From a virus, in the IMG/VR virus record IMGVR_UViG_3300009431_000366, positions 1-31,915 of that record: 31,915 nt of DNA. The stretch is one strand, 5' to 3'. A program made the position numbers and the translations under genes. The first letter of the stretch is position 1, and every line of letters starts with the position of its first letter. A model generated the notes under the pieces. The model worked only from the letters and a program-made list of their open reading frames with translations, was not told where the DNA came from and did no database searches. Positions 4,720 to 31,915 of the stretch are shown here, piece after piece.

Positions 4720-5219
4720 TCACCGTCTTCTCCGTAGATCCGCCTAACGCGTGGGCGCTGATGACTGAGCGGGAGGTATTCAGGTATGGCCGCATCCCTG
4801 TTATTCGCACCGCTGGCCGCATCAACTACGAGGCATGGGCGCAGAGGTGGCGGGGCGTAACCGCCGCAGTGGGCGAGGCTGACGTGTTCGGCATCGAAGC
4901 TATCTATCTGCACGACCGCGGCGACGATGACCCGCACGTCCGCAAGGGCAAACAGCGCGGATCTTTGGTGTTGGCTCGACGAGCGGGGATGATCGAGGGG
5001 TTCATTCGGTCGCAACATCCAGCAGGGAGCGTGGAGATCGTCACGTCGGGCGACTGGCGGAAAACGAGCGGTTTCCTTGAGCGCACGGGGCGGGAGGCGC
5101 TGAAGGCTGCCTCAGTCGCCTTGGTCAAGCAACTGTACGGGCTGGATGTCTCGCACGATGCGGCCGACGCCATTTTGATAGGACGCCACCTGGCTATTGT
5201 GACTGCGGTGGCGCCATGA
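4716..5219 (+). CDS. RuvC-like Holliday junction resolvase
   Basis: A 167-residue endonuclease of the RNase H-like RuvC group. The four acidic catalytic residues fall where expected: D8 in FSVDPPNAWAL, E61 in VFGIEAIY, and D148 and D151 in SHDAADAILIG. KQRGSLVLARRAGMIEGFI is the conserved helix after the catalytic Glu. It would resolve branched DNA made during recombination or cut junctions before packaging. Compared with E. coli RuvC, as remembered, the loop after E61 is longer by roughly ten residues (about 63-80). This loop contains a 38-base tract that recurs at 31365-31402 (see findings). Located directly behind recT, the exonuclease and the XRE gene, it completes the recombination module. 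Confidence 0.9.
   Translation: MITVFSVDPPNAWALMTEREVFRYGRIPVIRTAGRINYEAWAQRWRGVTAAVGEADVFGIEAIYLHDRGDDDPHVRKGKQRGSLVLARRAGMIEGFIRSQHPAGSVEIVTSGDWRKTSGFLERTGREALKAASVALVKQLYGLDVSHDAADAILIGRHLAIVTAVAP
4903..4943. repeat. Copy A of a 38-base tract shared with 31365-31402
   Basis: Bases 4903-4922 and 4926-4943 are identical to 31365-31384 and 31385-31402, apart from three extra bases (GAC at 4923-4925) here. Here the tract codes on the plus strand for the loop YLHDRGDDDPHVR of the RuvC-like protein. In the other copy the coding gene lies on the minus strand. Confidence 0.9.
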
Positions 5220-5747: not shown

Positions 5748-6110
5748 ATGAGTGGACGCCAGATCCCCTACGTCCGTTGCGACGAGTGTGGGAAGTTGAA
5801 ATCAGAACGGACCATGTATCCGTGGGCCGAGAAGCAATACTGTATGGACTGCCTGATCCCGGTCATGCGACGGGATATGGTGTCCGACGAAGAGACGAGG
5901 GGGCCAAGCCCTGCCGCCGATGCGTTGCACATGCCGACCCCCGCTGACCCGCTTGACGACATGCTCATCATCCTGCGCCTCTACGCGGATGGCAAGAACT
6001 GGGGGTCGGTCAACCAGCACGCGACGGCGCACCGCTGGAAGGGTAACGGCGGGCCTGGTTACGGGCCCGCGCGGCGGCTGCTGAAGAGACATGGACTGGA
6101 GGAGGGATAA
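5748..6110 (+). CDS. Small zinc-ribbon protein
   Basis: A 120-residue protein with an N-terminal two-CxxC zinc ribbon (C11, C14, C32, C35; YVRCDECGKLK...YCMDC). A disordered linker follows, then a C-terminal segment with DPLDDMLIILRLYADG and a basic GYGPARRLLKRHG. It probably binds nucleic acid or a partner protein, but no family is recognised. Its TAA stop overlaps the start of the peptidase gene by one base (TAATG at 6110). Confidence 0.75.
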   Translation: MSGRQIPYVRCDECGKLKSERTMYPWAEKQYCMDCLIPVMRRDMVSDEETRGPSPAADALHMPTPADPLDDMLIILRLYADGKNWGSVNQHATAHRWKGNGGPGYGPARRLLKRHGLEEG

Positions 6111-6667
6111 TGAGCCTGCAGGATAGCATCGTAGCCGCGGCGCTGGCAGATGTGGCGAGAGGTCCGGTCGAAGGCCCTGACGACGACTGGATCACCGAGA
6201 ACATCATCGAACCGAGCTTCGGCCCCGGCCACACGCCGAAAGGAACCCAATACTGCGCCATGACCGTCGCCCGTTGGTATCGTCTGGCGGGCTTCGGAGA
6301 CACGGCGGGGATGCACAGCGCAGGAAAGGTGCTCTACAAGTGGGCCAAGCGCGTCGGAGCGCACGTCTACCGCAACGACGCCAAGGCCCGCGAGCGCCGC
6401 TTCCCCCGGTCTGGTGATATTGTGATCCACCAGAACAAGCCGGGGAGCTGGCACGGCCACGTCATGCTTTGCGTCGCCGCTGGCCCTGGTACCGATCGCA
6501 TCCTCATCGCGGAGGGCAACCACAGCAAGTCCATGGGTCCATCGCAGATGTGCTACTACCCCGGCACCCTGGGCGAGGATCTGGAGCGTCGCGCGGGGAT
6601 CGGCCTGCGCTGGCTGTCGCCCCAAGACGCGTATATCGCCGCATGGGTCAGGGTTTCCGATGGCTGA
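6110..6667 (+). CDS. CHAP/NlpC-like cysteine peptidase, probable endolysin
   Basis: A 185-residue protein with the CHAP-type amidase layout. TQYCAMTVARWYRLAGF holds the candidate catalytic Cys49 at the start of a helix, SGDIVIHQNKPGSWHGHVML holds the His (H117) in the second strand, and ILIAEGNHS provides the third polar residue. Such enzymes cut amide bonds in peptidoglycan. With no signal peptide it would need a holin, as endolysins do, or could be virion-carried. A strong GGAGGAGG ribosome site precedes the ATG. Together with the transglycosylase-like gene at 1565 the phage may have two cell-wall enzymes of different chemistry, spaced 4.5 kb apart. No cell-wall-binding domain is seen. Confidence 0.82.
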   Translation: MSLQDSIVAAALADVARGPVEGPDDDWITENIIEPSFGPGHTPKGTQYCAMTVARWYRLAGFGDTAGMHSAGKVLYKWAKRVGAHVYRNDAKARERRFPRSGDIVIHQNKPGSWHGHVMLCVAAGPGTDRILIAEGNHSKSMGPSQMCYYPGTLGEDLERRAGIGLRWLSPQDAYIAAWVRVSDG

Positions 6668-6993: not shown

Positions 6994-7200
6994 ATGCAAT
7001 GGAGTAGGAAAGTTCCCGACGTGGGAGGTGATTATTGGGCGGAGATCGCGGGCCCTGAAGAATCTTGGATAGCAGTCGTGAGGCATTACTGCGAGCACCT
7101 GGTCTATGTCGCAGGTTGTGAGAACGGCGTCCTGACAAGAAAGGTTCTTCGCTGGTATGGTCCACTTGTTCCACCACCGATGGACGACGACTCTGAATGA
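6994..7200 (+). CDS. Hypothetical 68-residue protein
   Basis: A small protein (MQWSRKVPDVGGDYWAEIAG... ending PPPMDDDSE) predicted to form several beta strands with an acidic tail. The pattern of Trp/Tyr residues and G-x-YW-A resembles small phage proteins that adopt a compact beta fold, but I do not recognise a family. The ATG at 6994 follows GAGGGGTGG, a good ribosome site; the upstream extension overlaps the preceding gene in another frame. It lies directly before the terminase gene. Confidence 0.65.
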   Translation: MQWSRKVPDVGGDYWAEIAGPEESWIAVVRHYCEHLVYVAGCENGVLTRKVLRWYGPLVPPPMDDDSE

Positions 7201-7216
7201 TGCTACTTTGCCCGCA

Positions 7217-9187
7217 ATGGGCAGGCGCAAAAAACCCCACGTCAAAAAGCCTCCGATACCTGAAGGAACCAGGCAAGGTTCCGACGATTTCCACGAGGCG
7301 CTGTCCAAGAACGCTGAACTTGCATGGCAGTGGTTCCGCTACTACGAGGTGACACCTGACGAGTTCCTCCGCGACTGCATCAAGATCGTCGATAAGGATG
7401 GCAACTACATCCCTCTGGACATCAGGGATCCCCGCTACAGCCGGGCTCAAAAGTACTACTTCAAGCTCTTCATGCAGGAGTATTTCAAGACAGGGCGTTT
7501 CCGAGCCATTGTCCTGAAGGCCCGTCAGTGGGGCTGTACGACGCTCACTAAAGGCATCGAAGTGTGGGCGATGATGTTCAATTCCTATCACCGAGCACTA
7601 TGTCTGGCGGATAGTTCGGAAGGGTCCGAGGGCATCCTGGAGATCCTGCGCGACATGGTCCACGGGCTCCCTGATTGGATTCGTCCGCGCTTGAGCGTGG
7701 ACAGAAATAACCGCGTCCGCTTCGACGGCTGGCCCAAGGATTCGCCGCTGCACCTCCTGGAAGACGGACGCAAGCACAAGAACCGCTCCTGGATGCGGGT
7801 CGGGACGGCCGCAAACGAGAAGGCGGGCCGTAAGTGGTCCGTTCGCAGCTTTACGGGTAGCGAAGTTTCGTTTTGGGGCAAGGTCGCATCAAAGGTGCTC
7901 GGCGGGATCTCGCAAGCGCTGGCGAAGACGGATGGCTCAATCGGCGTACTGGAGTCTACAGGAAACGGTTGGGGCGGCGAGTTCTATGATCGTTGCCAAC
8001 GCGCCCGCACGGGCGAGTCGCCTTGGAAGTTCGTTTTCATCCCGTGGTTCTTGATCGGTGAGTACAAACTCTACAGGAGCAACAAGGCAGAGTTGGAGTT
8101 CCTGGGCGTGAACTACGACGAGTTCTATCAGCACGTCTACAGGGGCCGCTATAAGGAGGCGGGACTGTCGCAGCGGGAGCGATCCTTCGCCGAAGAGCAC
8201 CGCTGCGACGGCGGGCAAATCCTCTGGTGGCGATACACGCTCGAAGACTCCTGCAACGGCGATGAACTGCTCATGGCGCAGGAGTACCCTGCAACTCCCG
8301 AAGACGCGTTCATGGTGGACGGAGACGCCGTCTTCGACCCATCCGCTATCTTGCGCCAGATGCCGAAAGCGCTACTCGGTACCAGGTGGGATTTCGCCAA
8401 GGAACCGGATGAGCAAAGAGATCTCCTCTACAAGCGCGACTCGGCGGCCTTTGACCTTGAACCGCAAGCAACCGGCCGCATCCATGTGTTTCATGAGCCC
8501 GAGGTGGATCATGAATACATCGTCTCCATCGACCCCTCAGAGGGTGCTGAATCCTACGTGGACGCCAAGAAGGAAGGCGACAACACCGCAATTGTCGTAT
8601 TGGACAGGACCGCTCACAGAGTCGCTGCGCGAGTGGCGGGCCGAATCGTCCCCGACCATACGGCGCTTCTCGGATACGGGCTGACCCTCTGGTACAACAG
8701 CGCCGTACTGGCACCCGAGAACAATGCGGGGTTCGGCACGTCAATCATCGAACTCGCGAAGGAGTGGGCTTACCCCAATACGTTCTTGCAGCGCATCACG
8801 GACGATGTAAAGAAGACGCATACGTTCAAGATGGGCTGGAACACCAACCCGAAGACCCGCAAGGAAATGTTCGACACCGCCAGGTCGGATGTGCGCCGGG
8901 GCAAGTGGGAGATCCTCGACGAGATGCTCCTCCGCGAACTGGCAAGTATGGTGTTCAAGAAGCGCGAGGGCGGGCGCATGAAACCCATGGCAGGCGGCGG
9001 GGCGAAGGATGATGTCTGCCTGGCGTTCGTGATCGGGTGCAGGGTGGACTATCTCCTGGGCGAGATGGAGCGCGAAGAGGGCAACGCAGAGAAGAAACCG
9101 AAACTCGATCCTGAAAACATCCTGTACCACGAGTGGATGCGCATTCGGGAAGAGGAAGAGAACCCGCACAAGTATTCGCCCTGGTAG
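7217..9187 (+). CDS. terL: Terminase large subunit
   Basis: A 656-residue packaging motor protein. The N-terminal ATPase has a Walker A-like VLKARQWGCTTLTKG (about residues 99-113, with the ARQ-G-T/S form usual for terminases), and later GSIGVLESTGNGWGGEFYD around residue 240. The C-terminal RNase H-like nuclease has the first acid in YIVSIDPSEG (D439), a middle strand AVLAPENNAGFG, and the last acids in GGAKDDVCLAF (D598/D599). It cuts concatemers and pumps DNA into the prohead through the portal encoded at 10185. Translation may start at the ATG at 7217, which has a basic MGRRKKPHVKK start but a weak ribosome site, or at the ATG at 7157 overlapping the previous gene. The length is somewhat above the common 450-600 residues. 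Confidence 0.95.
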   Translation: MGRRKKPHVKKPPIPEGTRQGSDDFHEALSKNAELAWQWFRYYEVTPDEFLRDCIKIVDKDGNYIPLDIRDPRYSRAQKYYFKLFMQEYFKTGRFRAIVLKARQWGCTTLTKGIEVWAMMFNSYHRALCLADSSEGSEGILEILRDMVHGLPDWIRPRLSVDRNNRVRFDGWPKDSPLHLLEDGRKHKNRSWMRVGTAANEKAGRKWSVRSFTGSEVSFWGKVASKVLGGISQALAKTDGSIGVLESTGNGWGGEFYDRCQRARTGESPWKFVFIPWFLIGEYKLYRSNKAELEFLGVNYDEFYQHVYRGRYKEAGLSQRERSFAEEHRCDGGQILWWRYTLEDSCNGDELLMAQEYPATPEDAFMVDGDAVFDPSAILRQMPKALLGTRWDFAKEPDEQRDLLYKRDSAAFDLEPQATGRIHVFHEPEVDHEYIVSIDPSEGAESYVDAKKEGDNTAIVVLDRTAHRVAARVAGRIVPDHTALLGYGLTLWYNSAVLAPENNAGFGTSIIELAKEWAYPNTFLQRITDDVKKTHTFKMGWNTNPKTRKEMFDTARSDVRRGKWEILDEMLLRELASMVFKKREGGRMKPMAGGGAKDDVCLAFVIGCRVDYLLGEMEREEGNAEKKPKLDPENILYHEWMRIREEEENPHKYSPW

Positions 9188-9196
9188 GTCGCTTCC

Positions 9197-9269
9197 AAAA
9201 AAATCTTGCAAGCGGGTGTGGCGTTGTGCAACATGGTGTTGTAAAATGCCACACCGGGAGGCGCTTGCA
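9197..9269 (-). terminator. Possible minus-strand intrinsic terminator
   Basis: Read on the minus strand, the same hairpin is followed after three bases by seven consecutive T (complement of A7 at 9197-9203), the shape of a rho-independent terminator. It could stop antisense transcription entering from the right. No minus-strand gene lies nearby to the right, so the role is doubtful and the plus-strand reading may be the important one. Confidence 0.35.
9207..9269 (+). promoter_or_regulatory. Long RNA hairpin with the ribosome-binding site in a bulge
   Basis: In the 81-bp gap after the terminase, 9207-9214 pairs perfectly with 9262-9269. Directly inside, 9215-9232 pairs with 9238-9255 (18 positions, one G/A mismatch, two G-U). 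The loop is 9233-9237. The only unpaired internal segment is 9256-9261, GGGAGG, which is exactly the Shine-Dalgarno of the gene starting at 9269. The A of its start codon is the last base of the outer stem. As RNA this would present the ribosome site in a bulge of an about 26-bp stem, so it may control translation of 9269-9586. No transcription promoter is clear in the gap. Confidence 0.75.
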
Positions 9270-9586
9270 TGGACTCTCTCGGCTATCTTCTGACAGCAAT
9301 CATCGTCTGGTTGGTTTTACGTGAAGCCCGCATCATGGGCCAAGGCTGGCTGAAGCATGTTGAGTCGGAAGCGGACTTGGACCGACAATTGAAACATGAC
9401 CTCCTAGAGGCAGAGCAGACAGGGAAACTGGAACTCCTAGAAGCACAGGCGGAAGCAGAACGGGACGTGGCTGACAAGTGGTCGGAAACTGGAGCGAGAG
9501 TTTCTCGCTCCAACAATCCCCGCTCAGACGAGCCAGATGGGGCAGTGAACATGGAGATACCGGTTGAAGACTACCGCACGCCATAG
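9269..9586 (+). CDS. Small membrane protein with coiled coil
   Basis: A 105-residue protein: an N-terminal transmembrane helix (MDSLGYLLTAIIVWLVL, about residues 4-18), then a long charged helical stretch (residues 28-75, rich in Glu, Leu and Ala) predicted to be a coiled coil, and a polar tail. This is the layout of i-spanins and of some holins, and a second candidate beside the gene at 2005. It lies between terminase and portal, where podoviruses sometimes keep lysis genes. The start is the ATG after the GGGAGG held in the bulge of the 9207-9269 hairpin. No family match was possible. Confidence 0.7.
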   Translation: MDSLGYLLTAIIVWLVLREARIMGQGWLKHVESEADLDRQLKHDLLEAEQTGKLELLEAQAEAERDVADKWSETGARVSRSNNPRSDEPDGAVNMEIPVEDYRTP

Positions 9587-9842
9587 TCGCTTGCTGTGGG
9601 AGACTGGCGATCCCCTTGGGGTTCCGTCTGTTGGTGTTCCAGGGCAGAGCAGCATCGGAGATCCGGCAAAACTCAACGTGACTCCAGCGGCGGCGGCAAG
9701 GGCTGTTGTTACGCCCGAAAGCATGGCGCTTCTCCAGGTCGAAGAGGCGGCCAGCGAGGATCAGCATCTCGCTGGCCGGACGATTCAGGGCACTACTGGC
9801 CTGACGCAGACGCGACCGCTTGAGATGCAGGTGTGGGGGTAG
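9564..9842 (+). CDS. Hypothetical 92-residue protein, TTG start
   Basis: A low-complexity, Ala/Gly/Pro-containing protein with a predicted helix around TPESMALLQVEEAASEDQHL. The TTG at 9564 follows GGAG at a proper distance and overlaps the end of the preceding gene; an internal ATG at 9723 would give a 39-residue product. Its stop at 9842 is three bases from the next start. Function unknown; the position between terminase and portal suggests a small virion or assembly protein. Confidence 0.6.
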   Translation: MKTTARHSRLLWETGDPLGVPSVGVPGQSSIGDPAKLNVTPAAAARAVVTPESMALLQVEEAASEDQHLAGRTIQGTTGLTQTRPLEMQVWG

Positions 9843-10184: not shown

Positions 10185-12137
10185 GTGAATATGGCTGATG
10201 TTCAAGAGCTGATCCAGCGCATCAGGGCGAGTGAGCGGGCGAAGCGCGTTCACAAGGCCCAATGGCTCTTGAACACGCTGTACTTCAAGGGCTACCAGTG
10301 GCAAGCGTACAACGAGACGCTCGGGATCTTCCAGGACCTCGGCCCGCGGCACGAGTGGAAGGTCCGCGTCGTTGAGAACTACGTGCGCCCCATTGCTCTG
10401 ACAATGGCCGCGAAGCTCACGCAGAACCGCCCGACCTGGACGGTCCTCCCGGCAACGATGGACTCCGACGACCGCAACAAGGCGCGGGTCTCGCAGCGAC
10501 TCCTGGACTACACCTGGGACGAGTGTGAACTTCAGCCGAAGCTGTATGAGGCCGTGCTCTGGTCGGTGCTCACCGGACAGGGTTTCTGGGCGCTCTATTG
10601 GGACCGCAACAAGAACCCGCAGGAGTTCATTGACGACGACGGCAAGCGGGTAGTGAAACCCATAGGCTTTCCGTCCATCGATGTTGTGGCCCCGTTCGAT
10701 ATCGGGCTTGATCCACTGGCTGATTCCGTGGAGAACTGCGAGTGGGGTTACCGCGTCAGGCTTGCAAGTACGGAGTGGGTCAAGGAGCAGATCGGAAAGC
10801 GAGTCGATGGCTCCGACATGGCCGACTTCGACCCTGACCTAGACCCACGACAGCAGCGTTCAAGCCTGTTCAACGATGTCCAGACGGGCGACGTGTACGG
10901 AGACAAGTATACGCCTGTGTGGGAGTTCTACGACACCGTTGCACAAAAGCTCTACTGGCTCACCAAGGAGAAAATCCTTCGCGTCGATGACTGGAAGTGG
11001 CCGGTGCCGTTCGTAGAGTTCCCGTTCGTGAAGAACCTCGGGGACGTGGACGGTAACGTGCTCACCGCGGGCGGTGTGTGGGGCGATACGGTGATCTCCG
11101 ACATCATCGATCCGCAGCGCGAACTCAACAAGACGTCGAGTCAGATCCTCGAAATCAAGAACCTGACATCGTTCCCGCGTCTCCTGGTGACAAGAGCGGC
11201 AGCGGTGAGGCGGCAAGACGTGACGGACATGCCGGGGTCGATGGTCCCCTGGTCCGGCAACGGGCAGAAACCCGAGCAACTCAACATCGGGGCGATCCCC
11301 TCGTATTTGTATCAGCTCCCCGACAGGCTCATCCAACGGATGTTCGACCTCAGCGGGGTGCATGAGATAAGTCAAGGAACGTCGCCGGGTTCAATCCAGT
11401 CGGGACGCGGACTGGCGATACTGGCGGAGATGGATGCTACGAAGTTCGGTCCACCCGCCCGCAACATCAGCAGAGCGATTCGACAGGCGGCGATCCAGAT
11501 CCTCAAGCTCTGGAAGGCGTACAGCGAATACCCACAGATGCTACGCGTCGTGGGCGACTCAAACATGCTGGAACTCGACGAGTTCGATGCGGGCGACATC
11601 GAGAGCTTCGACGTGAAGATCCAAGAAGGATCAACGATGGCGACGAACAAGTCGCTACGGACCGATCAGATCCTCCAAATGTGGCAGCTCGGCATTGAAC
11701 AGGACCCGCGCAAGATCAAGAAAATGCTGGAATTTGGGGACATGGAAACGGTGGCTGGCGACTTCGACTTGGACAGGCTGAAGCAGCGACGCGAGATCCA
11801 GCGCATCCTGGGTGGCGAAGAGGTTGGGATCGACCCTTGGGACGACAACCACACGCACATTGACGAAACCGAGATGTACCTCAAGTCCACGGACTTCGAG
11901 AACATCGAAAACGACGTCATCAGGCAGCGGCTCGTGAAGCATTGGCAGATGCACAAGGAGGCCATGGCCGCGCAGCAGCAGGCGGAAGCCGTGGCCGCGC
12001 AGCAGCGCGGGATCGCATCGTCGGGAGCAGGGGCGCGACAGGAGATTCCGGACGTGTCCTTCATGCAAGGCATTGATACGGGGGGCGAGGCGAACCCCGT
12101 GGGGCGTGTTGACCAGATGATAGGAGAGGGGAGATGA
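10185..12137 (+). CDS. Portal protein, P22/SU10-like podoviral type
   Basis: A 650-residue portal (head-tail connector). Recognisable features are the N-terminal helix with the WLLNTLYFKGYQW pattern, VENYVRPIALTMAAKLTQNRPTW, a long mixed domain with DVVAPFDIGLDPLA, the stem-type segment DTVISDIIDPQRELNKTSSQ, and a C-terminal helical, Gln/Ala-rich region (KEAMAAQQQAEAVAAQQR) that may form a barrel. Length and motifs fit the large podoviral portals of about 600-750 residues. It forms the twelve-part ring through which the terminase pumps DNA and to which the adaptor at 18019 binds. The start is GTG at 10185 or ATG at 10191, ambiguous by two residues. Its stop overlaps the scaffold start (ATGA). 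Confidence 0.93.
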   Translation: MNMADVQELIQRIRASERAKRVHKAQWLLNTLYFKGYQWQAYNETLGIFQDLGPRHEWKVRVVENYVRPIALTMAAKLTQNRPTWTVLPATMDSDDRNKARVSQRLLDYTWDECELQPKLYEAVLWSVLTGQGFWALYWDRNKNPQEFIDDDGKRVVKPIGFPSIDVVAPFDIGLDPLADSVENCEWGYRVRLASTEWVKEQIGKRVDGSDMADFDPDLDPRQQRSSLFNDVQTGDVYGDKYTPVWEFYDTVAQKLYWLTKEKILRVDDWKWPVPFVEFPFVKNLGDVDGNVLTAGGVWGDTVISDIIDPQRELNKTSSQILEIKNLTSFPRLLVTRAAAVRRQDVTDMPGSMVPWSGNGQKPEQLNIGAIPSYLYQLPDRLIQRMFDLSGVHEISQGTSPGSIQSGRGLAILAEMDATKFGPPARNISRAIRQAAIQILKLWKAYSEYPQMLRVVGDSNMLELDEFDAGDIESFDVKIQEGSTMATNKSLRTDQILQMWQLGIEQDPRKIKKMLEFGDMETVAGDFDLDRLKQRREIQRILGGEEVGIDPWDDNHTHIDETEMYLKSTDFENIENDVIRQRLVKHWQMHKEAMAAQQQAEAVAAQQRGIASSGAGARQEIPDVSFMQGIDTGGEANPVGRVDQMIGEGR

Positions 12138-14190: not shown

Positions 14191-14197
14191 GTGCCTT

Positions 14198-14237
14198 GAG
14201 GGGAGGGCGGGGTAGGGCATTGTCCTGCCCTCCCCTC
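14198..14237 (+). terminator. GC-rich hairpin after the capsid gene (terminator, attenuator or RNA-stability element)
   Basis: In the 118-bp gap 14191-14308, 14198-14208 (GAGGGGAGGGC) pairs perfectly with 14227-14237, and inner bases 14209-14214 also pair with 14221-14226, three of these as G-U. The loop is 14215-14220. No T-run follows, so it is not a textbook intrinsic terminator. A second small hairpin (TGCCC at 14246-14250 with GGGCA at 14255-14259) follows. The pair could lower read-through or protect capsid mRNA. The rest of the gap holds the ribosome site AGGAGGC before 14309. Confidence 0.6.
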
Positions 14238-14308
14238 TCCTGTAATGCCCTTTGGGGCAAACTGGGGGTTTGGGATTATGCCCGCCCCCTAAGAAGCAGG
14301 AGGCTTCA

Positions 14309-16390
14309 ATGATTCGTTCGCATAACATAGATTGGAACTACCTCGTCAAGACGCCCGAGACAGCGTCTTTCAACATCTCCAAGTACAAGGCTGGCGAAGT
14401 CGTGATGCTGGACCCGGCGAATGCGTCGGCCGACATCGAACTCACGCTGGACGCGGTCATCAACGGCCCGGTGTTCTTCGTCATCAAGAGTGCGACGACC
14501 ACCTACGCGGTGAAGGTGATGCACAACAGCCTGTGCTACTCCTTCGCCAGCGACCTTACGCTTGGCAGCGCCTCGCAGGACCTGGTCGGCAAGGTCTTCG
14601 TTCTGTACGGCGACGACACGAAATGGTCCTACGAGGGTCCGGAGGACGTGGACTTCGATGGCGACCTTTCGGTAGACAGCCTGACCTCAGCGGGCGACAT
14701 CACCATCGCCGACGGCAAAGGCGTCGTTGCAGCGGGAGCAAGCTACTTCAAGGGCACCGACGCGGCCGACGAGACAGCGGGCGACGATATCGACGTAACC
14801 CTAGCGGCTGGTGGCGACGCGGCAGGCGCGGCGGTCGGCGGCGATGGTGGCTCCCGGAACGTGACCGCTGGTGCAGGTGGAGCAGCGGACGATGCATTCG
14901 CCGCTGGAGCTGGTGGAGACCTAACCTACACGGCAGGCGCGGGCGGTGCTGGAGACGACGACGCTGGAGCGCTCGGCGTACCTGGCGCTGGTGGTACTCA
15001 GACCATCTCTGGCGGTGCTGGTGGCGCCGGCACCGCGGCTACCCAAGACGGGGCGGCTGGCGGCGACAACGTCATGGCGGCTGGCGCGGGCGGCGCGGGC
15101 GGCGTAGGTACCACAAGCGGTGCGGGTGGCGACGGCATTCTCCGTGGTGGTGCAGCAGGAGCCAACGGCGGCGGCGGCGCAGGCGACGACGGAAAGGTCA
15201 AGATCGGGGACCAGGACACAGACAGCATTGAGATCGGCAACGCGACCGATAATCCCGAGACGAATTTCCTTGGGACAGGGGATGTCAATCACGGCGGCGA
15301 TTGCGTTGTCGTCGCCACGAAGAAGTTCAAGGGACTGGGCGACGCCGAACTTGAGGCAGCAGAAGGCCCTGCCGAAACAAATGGTTTTGATACCACGTTC
15401 ATAGGCGGCGATGGCGGCGCAGCCGCAGGCGCAGCCAAGGGCGGCGTCGGTGGTGGCGTTCGAGGCTACGGCGGCGATGGCGGCGCAGCGGACGCAGCCA
15501 ACGGGGGCGGCGCAGGTGGTCAGGCGCTCCTGGTCGGTGGAGATGGCGGTGCCGGTTCCGCGGCCAAGGCAGCGGGCGCAGGCGGCGCGGGGGCAATCTC
15601 GGCAGGCGCTGGCGGCGATGACGGCGGTGCCAACGCGGCCGACGGCGGTGGTTTCGTGATCACGGCTGGCGCGGGCGGTTCGGCGAGCGTGGCCGATGTT
15701 CAAGCTGGCGGCGGCGGCGATCTGACGGTTGCTGCCGGTGCAGGCGGCGCAGGCGGCGCAGCGGCAGCAGTCGGTGGTGACGGCGGCGACCTGATCTTGA
15801 ATGCGGGTGCTGGTGGCGCGACCGGCGGCGCGGGTGCTGGCGTCCATGGACTCTTGCAGATTGGCGCAGCGAACACCGACAGCATCGAGATCGGCAACGC
15901 GACCGACAACCCGGATGTGGATTTCATCGGCACCGGGACTGTCGCCATGGACGGGCCGCTGGAAGCCCCGATGAAGGATATGTCCATCCTGGAGGCCCCC
16001 GACGACGAGGCATTCCGGGGGATCACGATGTCCGTGACCGCGGGGGAAAACGTCTCCGCAGGCGACGCGCTCTATCTCAAGAACGACGGGAAGTGGTGGA
16101 AGGCAGATGCGGACGTTGCGGCTGGACCGCTGGTGCCCAGCGCGGCGCTCGCTACCGCGGATGCGTTGGCAGACGCAGACCTCGTCGTGCTCGTGTACGG
16201 CACCATGCGGCAGGACGCCAACTGGGCGCTGGCGACAAAGGGTGGTGTAGTCTACCTGGGCGTCACCCCCGGCACTCTGACGCAGACGGCTCCCGCAAAC
16301 CCAGGTGATGCCAAGCAGCGCCTCGGGATCGTGACCGATCTGGCCGATACCGTGTTCTTCTGCCCGAGCATTGATGTTGGGATCGTATAA
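14309..16390 (+). CDS. Glycine-rich virion protein, fibre or capsid decoration candidate
   Basis: A 693-residue protein with clear modules. Residues 1-110 are a globular beta domain. Residues 162-297 and 362-514 are two Gly/Ala/Asp-rich blocks with runs of GGAGGxGG, interrupted every 15-20 residues by short beta words such as LTYTAGAGG and FVITAGAGG. Each block ends with the same unit, TDSIEIGNATDNP...F-GTG, coded by near-identical DNA at 15220-15257 and 15879-15916. Residues 560-693 form a C-terminal beta domain (ITMSVTAGENVSAGDALYLKNDGKWWKAD...) like the end domains of many marine phage structural proteins. Gly-rich runs of this kind may form polyglycine-II-type bundles, known from phage adhesins. 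It lies right behind the capsid gene, so a head fibre, decoration or receptor-contact protein is likely. The ATG at 14309 has a strong AGGAGGC site. Confidence 0.75.
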   Translation: MIRSHNIDWNYLVKTPETASFNISKYKAGEVVMLDPANASADIELTLDAVINGPVFFVIKSATTTYAVKVMHNSLCYSFASDLTLGSASQDLVGKVFVLYGDDTKWSYEGPEDVDFDGDLSVDSLTSAGDITIADGKGVVAAGASYFKGTDAADETAGDDIDVTLAAGGDAAGAAVGGDGGSRNVTAGAGGAADDAFAAGAGGDLTYTAGAGGAGDDDAGALGVPGAGGTQTISGGAGGAGTAATQDGAAGGDNVMAAGAGGAGGVGTTSGAGGDGILRGGAAGANGGGGAGDDGKVKIGDQDTDSIEIGNATDNPETNFLGTGDVNHGGDCVVVATKKFKGLGDAELEAAEGPAETNGFDTTFIGGDGGAAAGAAKGGVGGGVRGYGGDGGAADAANGGGAGGQALLVGGDGGAGSAAKAAGAGGAGAISAGAGGDDGGANAADGGGFVITAGAGGSASVADVQAGGGGDLTVAAGAGGAGGAAAAVGGDGGDLILNAGAGGATGGAGAGVHGLLQIGAANTDSIEIGNATDNPDVDFIGTGTVAMDGPLEAPMKDMSILEAPDDEAFRGITMSVTAGENVSAGDALYLKNDGKWWKADADVAAGPLVPSAALATADALADADLVVLVYGTMRQDANWALATKGGVVYLGVTPGTLTQTAPANPGDAKQRLGIVTDLADTVFFCPSIDVGIV

Positions 16391-30355: not shown

Positions 30356-31053
30356 GCGAGGCGAAGAGACGAGGCCGACCCCCAGGCAGCAAGAACAAAC
30401 CAAAGCCGGGCCGCCCACCGACAGGCCAGCGAGGCCGCCCACCCGGCAGGCCGAAGAAAGGGGGCCACAAGAAACCTCAGCACACGGATCTGGAGTATTA
30501 CAGGCAGGCAGCGCGCGACCCGCTCAAGGAGGAGCACAGGAGCAAGGCGACTTCAGCGATTTGGATAACCGACACTCGCACGGATCTGCCAAGCGTCAGG
30601 TGCTTCGGGGTCCCGATGTCAAGTCCAGCGTCCATGGACAGGCCGACAAAGGTGCTGCTCAAGTGGCCGAGGTGCAGCACGCCGATCAACGACGCGATCG
30701 AGCAGGGTTATCTGAAGGCCAGCGGTAAGGGGCTCAACCCCAAGCCCCCGCATTTCGGGATCGGGCAGGGCGGGGAACTGGTGCAGTTCCTCGATCCGAC
30801 GAGAAACGGCTCAGCCATGGGGAAGGGCGCGTTCGACGAGGAGTGCAGGCAGTCCAGTACAATCGTGGTCGTCGCACTCCAGCCTAGGTCAGCGGGCAAG
30901 CGTCCGACCGTCGCCCAGGTCCGCACGACTGAGCGCCTGCTCACACTCCTGAGCCGGATCTACGGTTTCCGCGGTGGCTACCTCGTCGAGGAACTGGAGT
31001 GGCAGGAGGGGCGGCAATTCGTCAGGGACAACCCCGGAATAGCAGCAGCATAA
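30352..31053 (+). CDS. AT-hook protein with degenerate amidase-like domain
   Basis: A 233-residue protein. Its first 42 residues contain three AT-hook cores: RGRPP at 7-11, PGRPP at 19-23 and RGRPP at 27-31 followed by GRPKKG. AT-hooks grip the minor groove of AT-rich DNA. Residues about 95-205 resemble an Amidase_2/PGRP fold: KVLLKWPRCS, PPHFGIGQGGELVQFLD, STIVVVALQPRSAGKRPTVAQVRTTERLLTLLSRIYG. The usual first zinc His is not present (KWPRCS instead of H-x-T), and a second His also looks lost, so it is probably non-catalytic or I have misjudged the fold. It is coupled to the giant gene by ATGA and ends the plus-strand block, so it may be packaged with DNA or be ejected. Confidence 0.72.
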   Translation: MSEAKRRGRPPGSKNKPKPGRPPTGQRGRPPGRPKKGGHKKPQHTDLEYYRQAARDPLKEEHRSKATSAIWITDTRTDLPSVRCFGVPMSSPASMDRPTKVLLKWPRCSTPINDAIEQGYLKASGKGLNPKPPHFGIGQGGELVQFLDPTRNGSAMGKGAFDEECRQSSTIVVVALQPRSAGKRPTVAQVRTTERLLTLLSRIYGFRGGYLVEELEWQEGRQFVRDNPGIAAA

Positions 31054-31096
31054 ACAGGCCAGCCCATAGAGAGAGCCCGAGCAGCCGCGTAAGCAT
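31022..31096 (-). CDS. Hidden 24-residue single-span membrane peptide
   Basis: On the minus strand, CGAGGAGGTAGACC precedes an ATG at 31096 that opens MLTRLLGLSLWAGLFMLLLF followed by RGCP and a stop. The peptide is one hydrophobic helix with a short positive end. The ribosome site overlaps the stop of the minus-strand gene at 31100, so it would be the third gene of the same operon. Its last ten codons overlap the end of the plus-strand AT-hook gene in antisense. Small membrane peptides of phages can be holins, antiholins or host-inhibitors. Evidence is the strong ribosome site, spacing and hydrophobic pattern. Confidence 0.5.
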   Translation of the reverse strand: MLTRLLGLSLWAGLFMLLLFRGCP

Positions 31097-31099
31097 GGT

Positions 31100-31477
31100 C
31101 TACCTCCTCGGGTCGTTGGGGTCGCTATTGCGTTGGTCGTGGTCCTCGTGATCCAGCCATGGGAATCGCTTCAGGCGCGCCTTGTGCGCCCCGCGGCGAC
31201 GGTTGCGAAGCGCTAGTGTGCCCTGCTTGCGCGGCTTGCCGGCGGCGCGCCTGCTCTGCTCCAGCCGCATATGCGCGTCGTGCTGATCCAGGTCCAGCCA
31301 ACGATCAGGGAAGCGCGCTTGCAGGAGTCCGTTGGACCATTGCACGAGCGCGCCAATCTCTCCGTCTATCTGCACGACCGCGGCGATGACCCGCACGTCC
31401 GCTGGCAGATCTGAGCAGAGATCTCGCGCTGCCTCGACGGCCGCGGGGATCGTTGTGATTTTCATTGATTCAGGCAT
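31100..31477 (-). CDS. Hypothetical 125-residue protein of the minus-strand operon
   Basis: A mixed protein: residues 1-60 have predicted alpha and beta (MKITTIPAAVEAARDLCSDL, VRVIAAVVQIDGEIGALVQW), and the rest is basic and polar with a charged tail (GKPRKQGTLALRNRRRGAHK ... DHEDHDQRNSDPNDPRR) that may bind nucleic acid. Its ATG overlaps the end of the upstream repeat-protein gene and follows GGAGG; an internal ATG at residue 5 is an alternative. Residues 26-38 (DVRVIAAVVQID) are coded by the minus strand of the 38-base tract shared with ruvC. No family recognised. Confidence 0.68.
   Translation of the reverse strand: MPESMKITTIPAAVEAARDLCSDLPADVRVIAAVVQIDGEIGALVQWSNGLLQARFPDRWLDLDQHDAHMRLEQSRRAAGKPRKQGTLALRNRRRGAHKARLKRFPWLDHEDHDQRNSDPNDPRR
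31365..31402. repeat. Copy B of the 38-base tract shared with 4903-4943
   Basis: Identical to copy A apart from lacking three bases. Here it lies in the minus-strand 125-residue gene, coding DVRVIAAVVQID. The plus-strand reading would give YLHDRGDDPHVR, as in RuvC, within a short 47-codon frame (31271-31414) that has no ribosome site. Confidence 0.9.
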
Positions 31478-31913
31478 CCTTCGCCTCCCTCCAGGACTCG
31501 AGCATCCACCGCTCGGTCCTGCTCCAGCACCGGCGACGCAGCAGCTTCGGGATGTCTAGACGGGCGAGGATCTCGTCATAGCATCCCGTCGTGTTCACGC
31601 CCAGGCGCTCGCCCCAGTGCTCGCGCTGCCATGAAGGTGGCAATACGCGACCGTGGGCCAGGGTGCCGGCGACGCGTGGCATGGACGCGTGAGACCAGCG
31701 CAGATTCCCAACGCAGTGCAGAGACCCACCGCAGTGCAGATTCCCGCCGCAGAACAGAGACCCATCGCAGCGCAGATACCCGCCGCAGCGCAGATCCCCA
31801 TCGCAGTACAGATTCCCAACGCAGTCCAGATTCCTGATCCTCTCCCCGGCACCTGCGTACGGGATACCGCACGTTATATGAGCATCGCCATCAATGGCGA
31901 TGCAGCCGTCCTC
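31470..31913 (-). CDS. Hexapeptide-repeat (xGxLxC) protein, 5' end beyond the window
   Basis: The visible 147 residues continue past the right edge, so the start is missing. Eight tandem hexapeptides follow the consensus x-G-x-L-x-C (NLDC, VGNLYC, DGDLRC, GGYLRC, DGSLFC, GGNLHC, GGSLHC, VGNLRW), coded by eight 18-base units at 31695-31838. Regular six-residue turns with a fixed Leu and Cys suggest a beta-solenoid with a Leu core and a Cys ladder. A conventional C-terminal domain follows (WQREHWGERLGVNTTGCYDEILARLDIPKLLRRRCW onward, split here by position), ending WMLESWREAKDA. Function unknown; DNA-mimic or binding solenoids are possible comparisons only. It is coupled to the next gene (eight-base overlap). 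Confidence 0.75.
   Translation of the reverse strand, partial: EDGCIAIDGDAHITCGIPYAGAGERIRNLDCVGNLYCDGDLRCGGYLRCDGSLFCGGNLHCGGSLHCVGNLRWSHASMPRVAGTLAHGRVLPPSWQREHWGERLGVNTTGCYDEILARLDIPKLLRRRCWSRTERWMLESWREAKDA
31695..31838. repeat. Eight tandem 18-base repeats
   Basis: Eight imperfect copies of an 18-base unit (plus-strand form GCAGNNCAGATTCCCNNC) run without spacer from 31695 to 31838. They code the hexapeptide repeats of the minus-strand gene. The lack of spacers, the three-frame openness and the protein pattern exclude a CRISPR array. Confidence 0.92.
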
Positions 31914-31915
31914 GT

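Follow-up and report, generated by a model that had tools for sequence, protein, structure and literature searches.

A hairpin beside the ribosome-binding site ahead of the structural genes of a podovirus-like phage is probably a small gene-control element

Introduction

The gene 43 operator of phage T4 is a hairpin lying upstream of a site that overlaps the ribosome-binding site, and the top 10 hairpin bases are identical between the T4 and RB69 operators (PMC3014915). In the T4 genes e, soc and 49, leader helices sequester the Shine-Dalgarno (SD) sequence or the start codon (PMC3014915). Here we describe a hairpin beginning at position 9207 of the 31,915-base virus record IMGVR_UViG_3300009431_000366, the whole of which was analysed and is called the window. 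Probably the 9207 element is a small gene-control element. It is most likely regulatory, its general kind is known, and by analogy it is best compared with the T4 translational operators (PMC3014915).

As in the gene 43 operators of T4 and RB69, a hairpin stands upstream of the ribosome-binding site, its apical bases are conserved, here in one relative (L079), and its base varies (PMC3014915). The differences concern length, at 41 nt here versus 16–18 nt in T4/RB69, and the gene served; the gene 43 operator lets the DNA polymerase control its own synthesis, whereas the gene here encodes a small protein near the portal gene, and the binder is putative. As in the leaders of genes e, soc and 49, the start region is partly covered by local pairing within a read-through transcript (PMC3014915). 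In contrast to those leaders, the best short fold leaves the SD unpaired and pairs just the spacer and the A of the AUG; a downstream late promoter is only putative.

Results and Discussion

The window encodes RecT, an exonuclease-like protein, a DNA methyltransferase, an endolysin-like protein, the large terminase subunit (TerL), a portal protein and major head proteins. Annotated phages, several of them with podovirus names, are only ~25% identical to the window in terminase and portal even where they are closest; by sequence comparison, the source phage belongs to an uncultured podovirus-like group without a close relative among annotated phages. The recognisable genes (~342 to 30355) all run rightward, and a convergent block seems to occupy the right end of the genome (31053–31915). 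The homologous gap was compared at three independent loci, namely the window, L079 (same sequence as L074 and L076) and L078, and L079 is the one informative relative of the gap in the collections. Searches of viral contigs with the terminase, portal, capsid and 105-aa proteins, with a profile and with DNA patterns returned the same few contigs, and scans of genome contigs found no homologues. At the junction read in the annotated phage ctEqG8, there is no gap after the terminase gene and no significant fold. The genes around the gap are as follows.

7157–9187, + strand: TerL gene (PHROG phrog_2, E 5.4e-17; protein identity 73% to L079 and 64% to L078); the start is putative, being the first ATG of the frame, and the gene ends in TGGTAG
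9188–9268, + strand: non-coding gap of 81 nt, from sequence and reading frames (78 nt in L079, 74 nt in L078)
9269–9586, + strand: gene of a 105-aa protein (identity 51% to L079 and 23% to L078)
10185–12137, + strand: portal protein gene, first of the structural block (phrog_156, E 6.7e-40; identity 77% to L079 and 73% to L078)

The 105-aa protein begins with a short hydrophobic stretch followed by a charged helix-like region, and neither Pfam, above the cut-off, nor PHROG gives a match for it. It could conceivably have a spanin-like role, given the hydrophobic N-terminus, the charged tail and the endolysin-like gene nearby (6110–6667).

The gap folds into a hairpin far more stable than expected by chance. 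Its parts are the following.

9190–9196, + strand: CGCTTCC, which in alternative, context-dependent folds can pair with GGAGGCG (9257–9263), covering the SD, or with AAGCG (9210–9214)
9197–9203, + strand: A7 run, read from the sequence (A6 in L079, AAATAA in L078), giving U7 on the minus strand beside the hairpin
9207–9214, + strand: 5' arm of the outer stem, TGCAAGCG, from sequence and folding; not kept as a stem in the relatives
9215–9233, + strand: 5' arm of the inner stem, from folding
9234–9236, + strand: apical loop TGG, from the sequence alignment (TAG in L079)
9237–9255, + strand: 3' arm of the inner stem, from folding
9256–9261, + strand: SD GGGAGG in the bulge between the outer and inner stems, from folding; paired in alternative folds
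9262–9269, + strand: 3' arm of the outer stem, CGCTTGCA, from sequence and folding; it ends on the A of the start codon, ATG at 9269

The outer stem comprises 8 perfect pairs, and the inner stem pairs 18 of its 19 positions (2 of them G-U) around one G-A mismatch. All coordinates given for this hairpin in an earlier note on the sequence match, and the hairpin is stronger than chance, the + strand folding 4.2 standard deviations below shuffles. The best fold of 9188–9271 on the + strand (−37.6 kcal/mol; z = −4.16, none of 200 shuffles as good) is exactly the structure listed above, and the longer stretch 9190–9290, which the note had proposed for folding, is also more stable than shuffled sequence (z = −3.69). 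Among 2000 shuffled versions of the gap, 2 had an ungapped-hairpin score as high; within the 31.9-kb window the score ranks second, behind only a hairpin after the major capsid gene. A second contig matches the window over 10,106 bases with zero differences, so a sequencing slip is unlikely.

The display of the SD in the bulge is a feature of one phage. Ensemble pairing probabilities were calculated across 25 flank-length combinations. The inner stem had a probability of 0.94–0.96 in all 25 contexts; the outer stem, in which the A of the AUG pairs, ranged from 0.01 to 0.97 with flank length, and the paired probability of the SD from 0.002 to 0.85. The outer stem varies because the SD pairs alternatively with 9274–9279 or with upstream bases such as 9192–9196, its competing partners being CUCUCU within the gene (9274–9279), CGCUUCC (9190–9196) and 9175–9182 in the terminase gene. 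When the leader was shuffled with the SD and the gene held fixed, the fraction of shuffles at least as paired at the SD was 0.53 in the window, 0.54 in L079 and 0.02 in L078. Pairing of the SD is thus not above the shuffle level in the window or L079 and is unusual only in L078. Opening the start region costs 19.4 kcal/mol in the window (rank 4 of 28 genes), 15.6 in L079 (rank 3 of 11) and 14.7 in L078 (rank 6 of 13). In L079 and L078, CCCC(UU)/AGGGGG or UUCCCUUG/CAAGGGGG can cover the SD instead, the pairing of L079 being at shuffle level. SD-sequestering pairing is therefore not kept in the relatives, as the outer stem is absent in both and the other pairings exceed shuffles only in L078.

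The earlier note had held that so exact a placement of the SD was unlikely by chance and pointed to translational control, and had proposed a search for compensatory changes in homologues. Both L079 and L078 lack the outer stem around the SD and show no change that compensates for the loss, an outcome that the note had named as refuting its reading. The argument from placement is thus not supported; the arrangement is peculiar to this phage and comparison does not support it as a translational control. The displayed SD may not be what selection acts on. Temperature control, also suggested there, is not supported either; an RNA thermometer (ROSE, fourU) was rejected because no Rfam family reached the gathering threshold anywhere in the window and the SD is unpaired in the best short fold.

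Conservation is concentrated in the inner hairpin, in one ungapped block.

9205–9254, + strand: conserved block, 38 of 50 bases (76%) identical to L079 1532–1581

Four-fold degenerate sites of the window and L079 are 43% identical in TerL, 45% in portal and 57% in the capsid gene. The binomial P for at least 38 of 50 identical bases is ~8e-6 at a 45% baseline and 0.004 at the 57% of the capsid gene, values that are somewhat optimistic, as the block ends were picked after viewing the alignment. Since the block exceeds the four-fold-site identity of TerL and portal, the core of the inner hairpin is probably under selection, most clearly when measured against these flanking genes. CTTGCAA, GTGnGGCGTT, GCAACATnGTGTTG and TGCCACAC are invariant between the window and L079, and the apical GCAACATNGTGTTG is identical at 13 of 14 positions in L079 and lost in L078. 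The substitutions in L079 are found in three places, namely the base, the internal mismatch with its surroundings and the centre of the loop. They have no three-base rhythm, and coding of the gap in another frame was rejected on this ground; an upstream mini-ORF (ATG GTG TTG TAA, 9233–9244) was also dropped, as it is not kept in L079.

What is conserved is sequence rather than pairing. L079 keeps 13 of the 18 inner pairs, almost all of them with the same bases, and has C-G in place of one mismatch; no existing inner pair shows a compensatory double change there. Under random mutation to an equal extent, P is 0.18 for pair retention and 0.055 for + strand energy. The inner hairpin of L079 folds slightly better on the minus strand (−18.6) than on the + strand (−15.9), and its gap folds only 1.3 to 1.8 standard deviations below shuffles. 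In L078 the inner hairpin sequence is lost and almost the whole element is gone. Of the control element claimed earlier, the inner part thus appears selected in L079, and what is kept there is its sequence, not compensated pairing. Judged from this comparison, either the + or the minus strand fits as the acting strand; an argument from G-U pairs favours + in the window but minus in L079 and was dropped.

The hairpin downstream of the major capsid gene shows the reverse pattern. This strong, GC-rich hairpin (14195–14235), with no U-run on the + strand, directly follows the capsid gene. Across the region (window 14191–14310, L079 6508–6637, L078 9986–10096), its structure is kept and its sequence changed in all three phages; 3' of it lies a conserved CCTGTAAYGC...AAACTGG, followed by the SD of the next gene. 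Both hairpins are strong, GC-rich and located in gaps of the same gene block, but the 9207 element keeps its sequence whereas the post-capsid hairpin keeps its structure. This difference argues for sequence-specific reading by an RNA- or DNA-binding protein and not for a purely structural role such as termination.

Our preferred reading, which we hold tentatively, is that a cis-acting leader element of the portal–capsid transcript lies in the gap that separates the terminase and 105-aa genes and works as a T4-like translational operator or damper. Where mRNA continues out of the terminase gene into this gap, the 41-nt inner hairpin would form beside the SD. A phage or host protein would read the apical GCAACA-UNG-UGUUG and the lower GUGNGGC/GCCACAC arms, as suggested by the retention of both parts as sequence. 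The hairpin, together with phage-specific basal pairing (the outer stem here, CCCCC/GGGGG in L079), would lower or gate initiation at the 105-aa gene, which appears too distant from the terminase stop for simple translational coupling. Under this proposal, GCAACAUNGUGUUG, like the inner-stem pairing, would matter for expression of the 105-aa gene. We infer each of these steps, namely that the element works as RNA of the + strand, that translation is its target and that a bound protein mediates the effect. A protein-read operator would be the first control point for the structural genes of this uncultured podovirus-like group and would supply a defined RNA bait for finding its regulator; if the element were only a terminator or a decaying palindrome, it would be ordinary.

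A double-stranded DNA site is an unlikely but serious alternative, in which the inverted repeat GTGnGGC-N6-CAACA-N3-TGTTG-N6-GCCnCAC would be an operator, perhaps overlapping a promoter of the portal–capsid block. L079 conserves both arms as sequence, as such an operator would predict. With its A/T-rich upstream stretch, the arrangement of the candidate promoter (A-tract, TTGCAA, 17 bp, CAACAT) is unique on the + strand of the window; TTGCAT-18-AATCAT, a similar arrangement in the homologous gap of L078, is likewise the only one on that phage's + strand. However, the promoter criteria were set with the site already in view, and the minus strand of this A/T-rich gap has matches that are just as good. 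The −10 element matches at 3 of 6 positions, and for a sigma-70 promoter with an UP element the best arrangement reaches 7 of 12 hexamer matches; a standard promoter scan finds none. Further against an operator, the dyad is single-copy in each genome fragment, and the half-site GGTGTGGC..CAACA occurs in 70 viral contigs, the inverted repeat only in this phage.

Another unlikely but serious alternative is a leftward intrinsic terminator, with a hairpin followed by U6–U7 on the minus strand, shielding the terminase gene from antisense transcripts. The resemblance to a Rho-independent terminator is shared by two phages: on the minus strand, U7 lies 3 nt from the hairpin in the window and U6 directly follows AGGGG in L079, whose only A6 run sits at the position homologous to the A7 of the window. 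The tail scores (4.7 in the window, 4.52 in L079) are among the best of either phage, the minus strand likewise forms a stable fold (z = −3.54 and −7.33), and the minus-strand energy of the L079 inner hairpin is better than that of 99% of random mutants. The right end of the window does have minus-strand frames, but these are confined to that far end, and a leftward stop seems needless among rightward genes. In terminators it is usually the structure, not the sequence, that is kept, and the post-capsid hairpin of these phages follows that pattern. In addition, AGA intervenes between stem and U-run in the window, only AAUUAUUU is left in L078, where the U-run is degraded, and a consensus terminator scan finds none here. 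The earlier note had offered this alternative on the strength of the A7 run; the A6 directly beside the L079 hairpin speaks for it, and the negative scan and the lack of a leftward gene nearby speak against it.

Compared with the leader read by a protein, three further explanations are improbable. Late transcripts of phage T7 carry hairpins that are processed by RNase III or stabilise the 5' end. The irregular ~26-bp duplex of the window, with its internal mismatch and intergenic position, would suit such a role, which we regard as doubtful, given that the L079 duplex is broken into short helices and the length fits the window but not L079. A two-way start switch of a podovirus structural operon is equally far-fetched; read-through transcripts would fold the hairpin and give little translation of the 105-aa gene, and late transcripts, made from a weak promoter (TTGCAA-17-CAACAT) in the 5' arm of the hairpin, would lack the arm and be freely translated. 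The logic is that of T4 gene e, except that promoter and hairpin arm are here the same sequence. There is likewise little probability that the element is a functionless chance palindrome decaying in the relatives; the outer stem and SD bulge are unique to the window, L078 lacks the element and pair retention in L079 is not beyond chance, but the 50-nt block is far more alike than the four-fold sites of TerL and portal.

N4-type virion RNA polymerase uses hairpin promoters, and such a promoter was considered because of the stem with a 3-nt loop and a 2173-aa protein encoded in the window. It was rejected; the hairpin is single-copy, Pfam, PHROG and PDB yield no match to the 2173-aa protein, and a search for polymerase motifs in it found none.

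Several other features of the window were recorded. Minus-strand reading frames lie at its right end (31053–31915), e.g., 31100–31477 (125 aa), after which an SD and ATG occur at 31096. The same end contains an 18-bp tandem repeat (CAGCGCAGATTCCCAACG-like, at least 6 copies, 31696–31848), and a near-identical 25-nt repeat (24/25) is shared between a resolvase-like gene (4903–4927) and this right-end block (31365–31389). An inverted repeat with 10-bp arms, GGCCAGCGAG...CTCGCTGGCC (9749–9778), lies within the gene of a 92-aa protein. The 712-aa protein encoded after the capsid gene has imperfect Gly/Ala-rich repeats (14801–15850), and its counterpart gene in L079 has a 443-nt repeat at 7212/7773.
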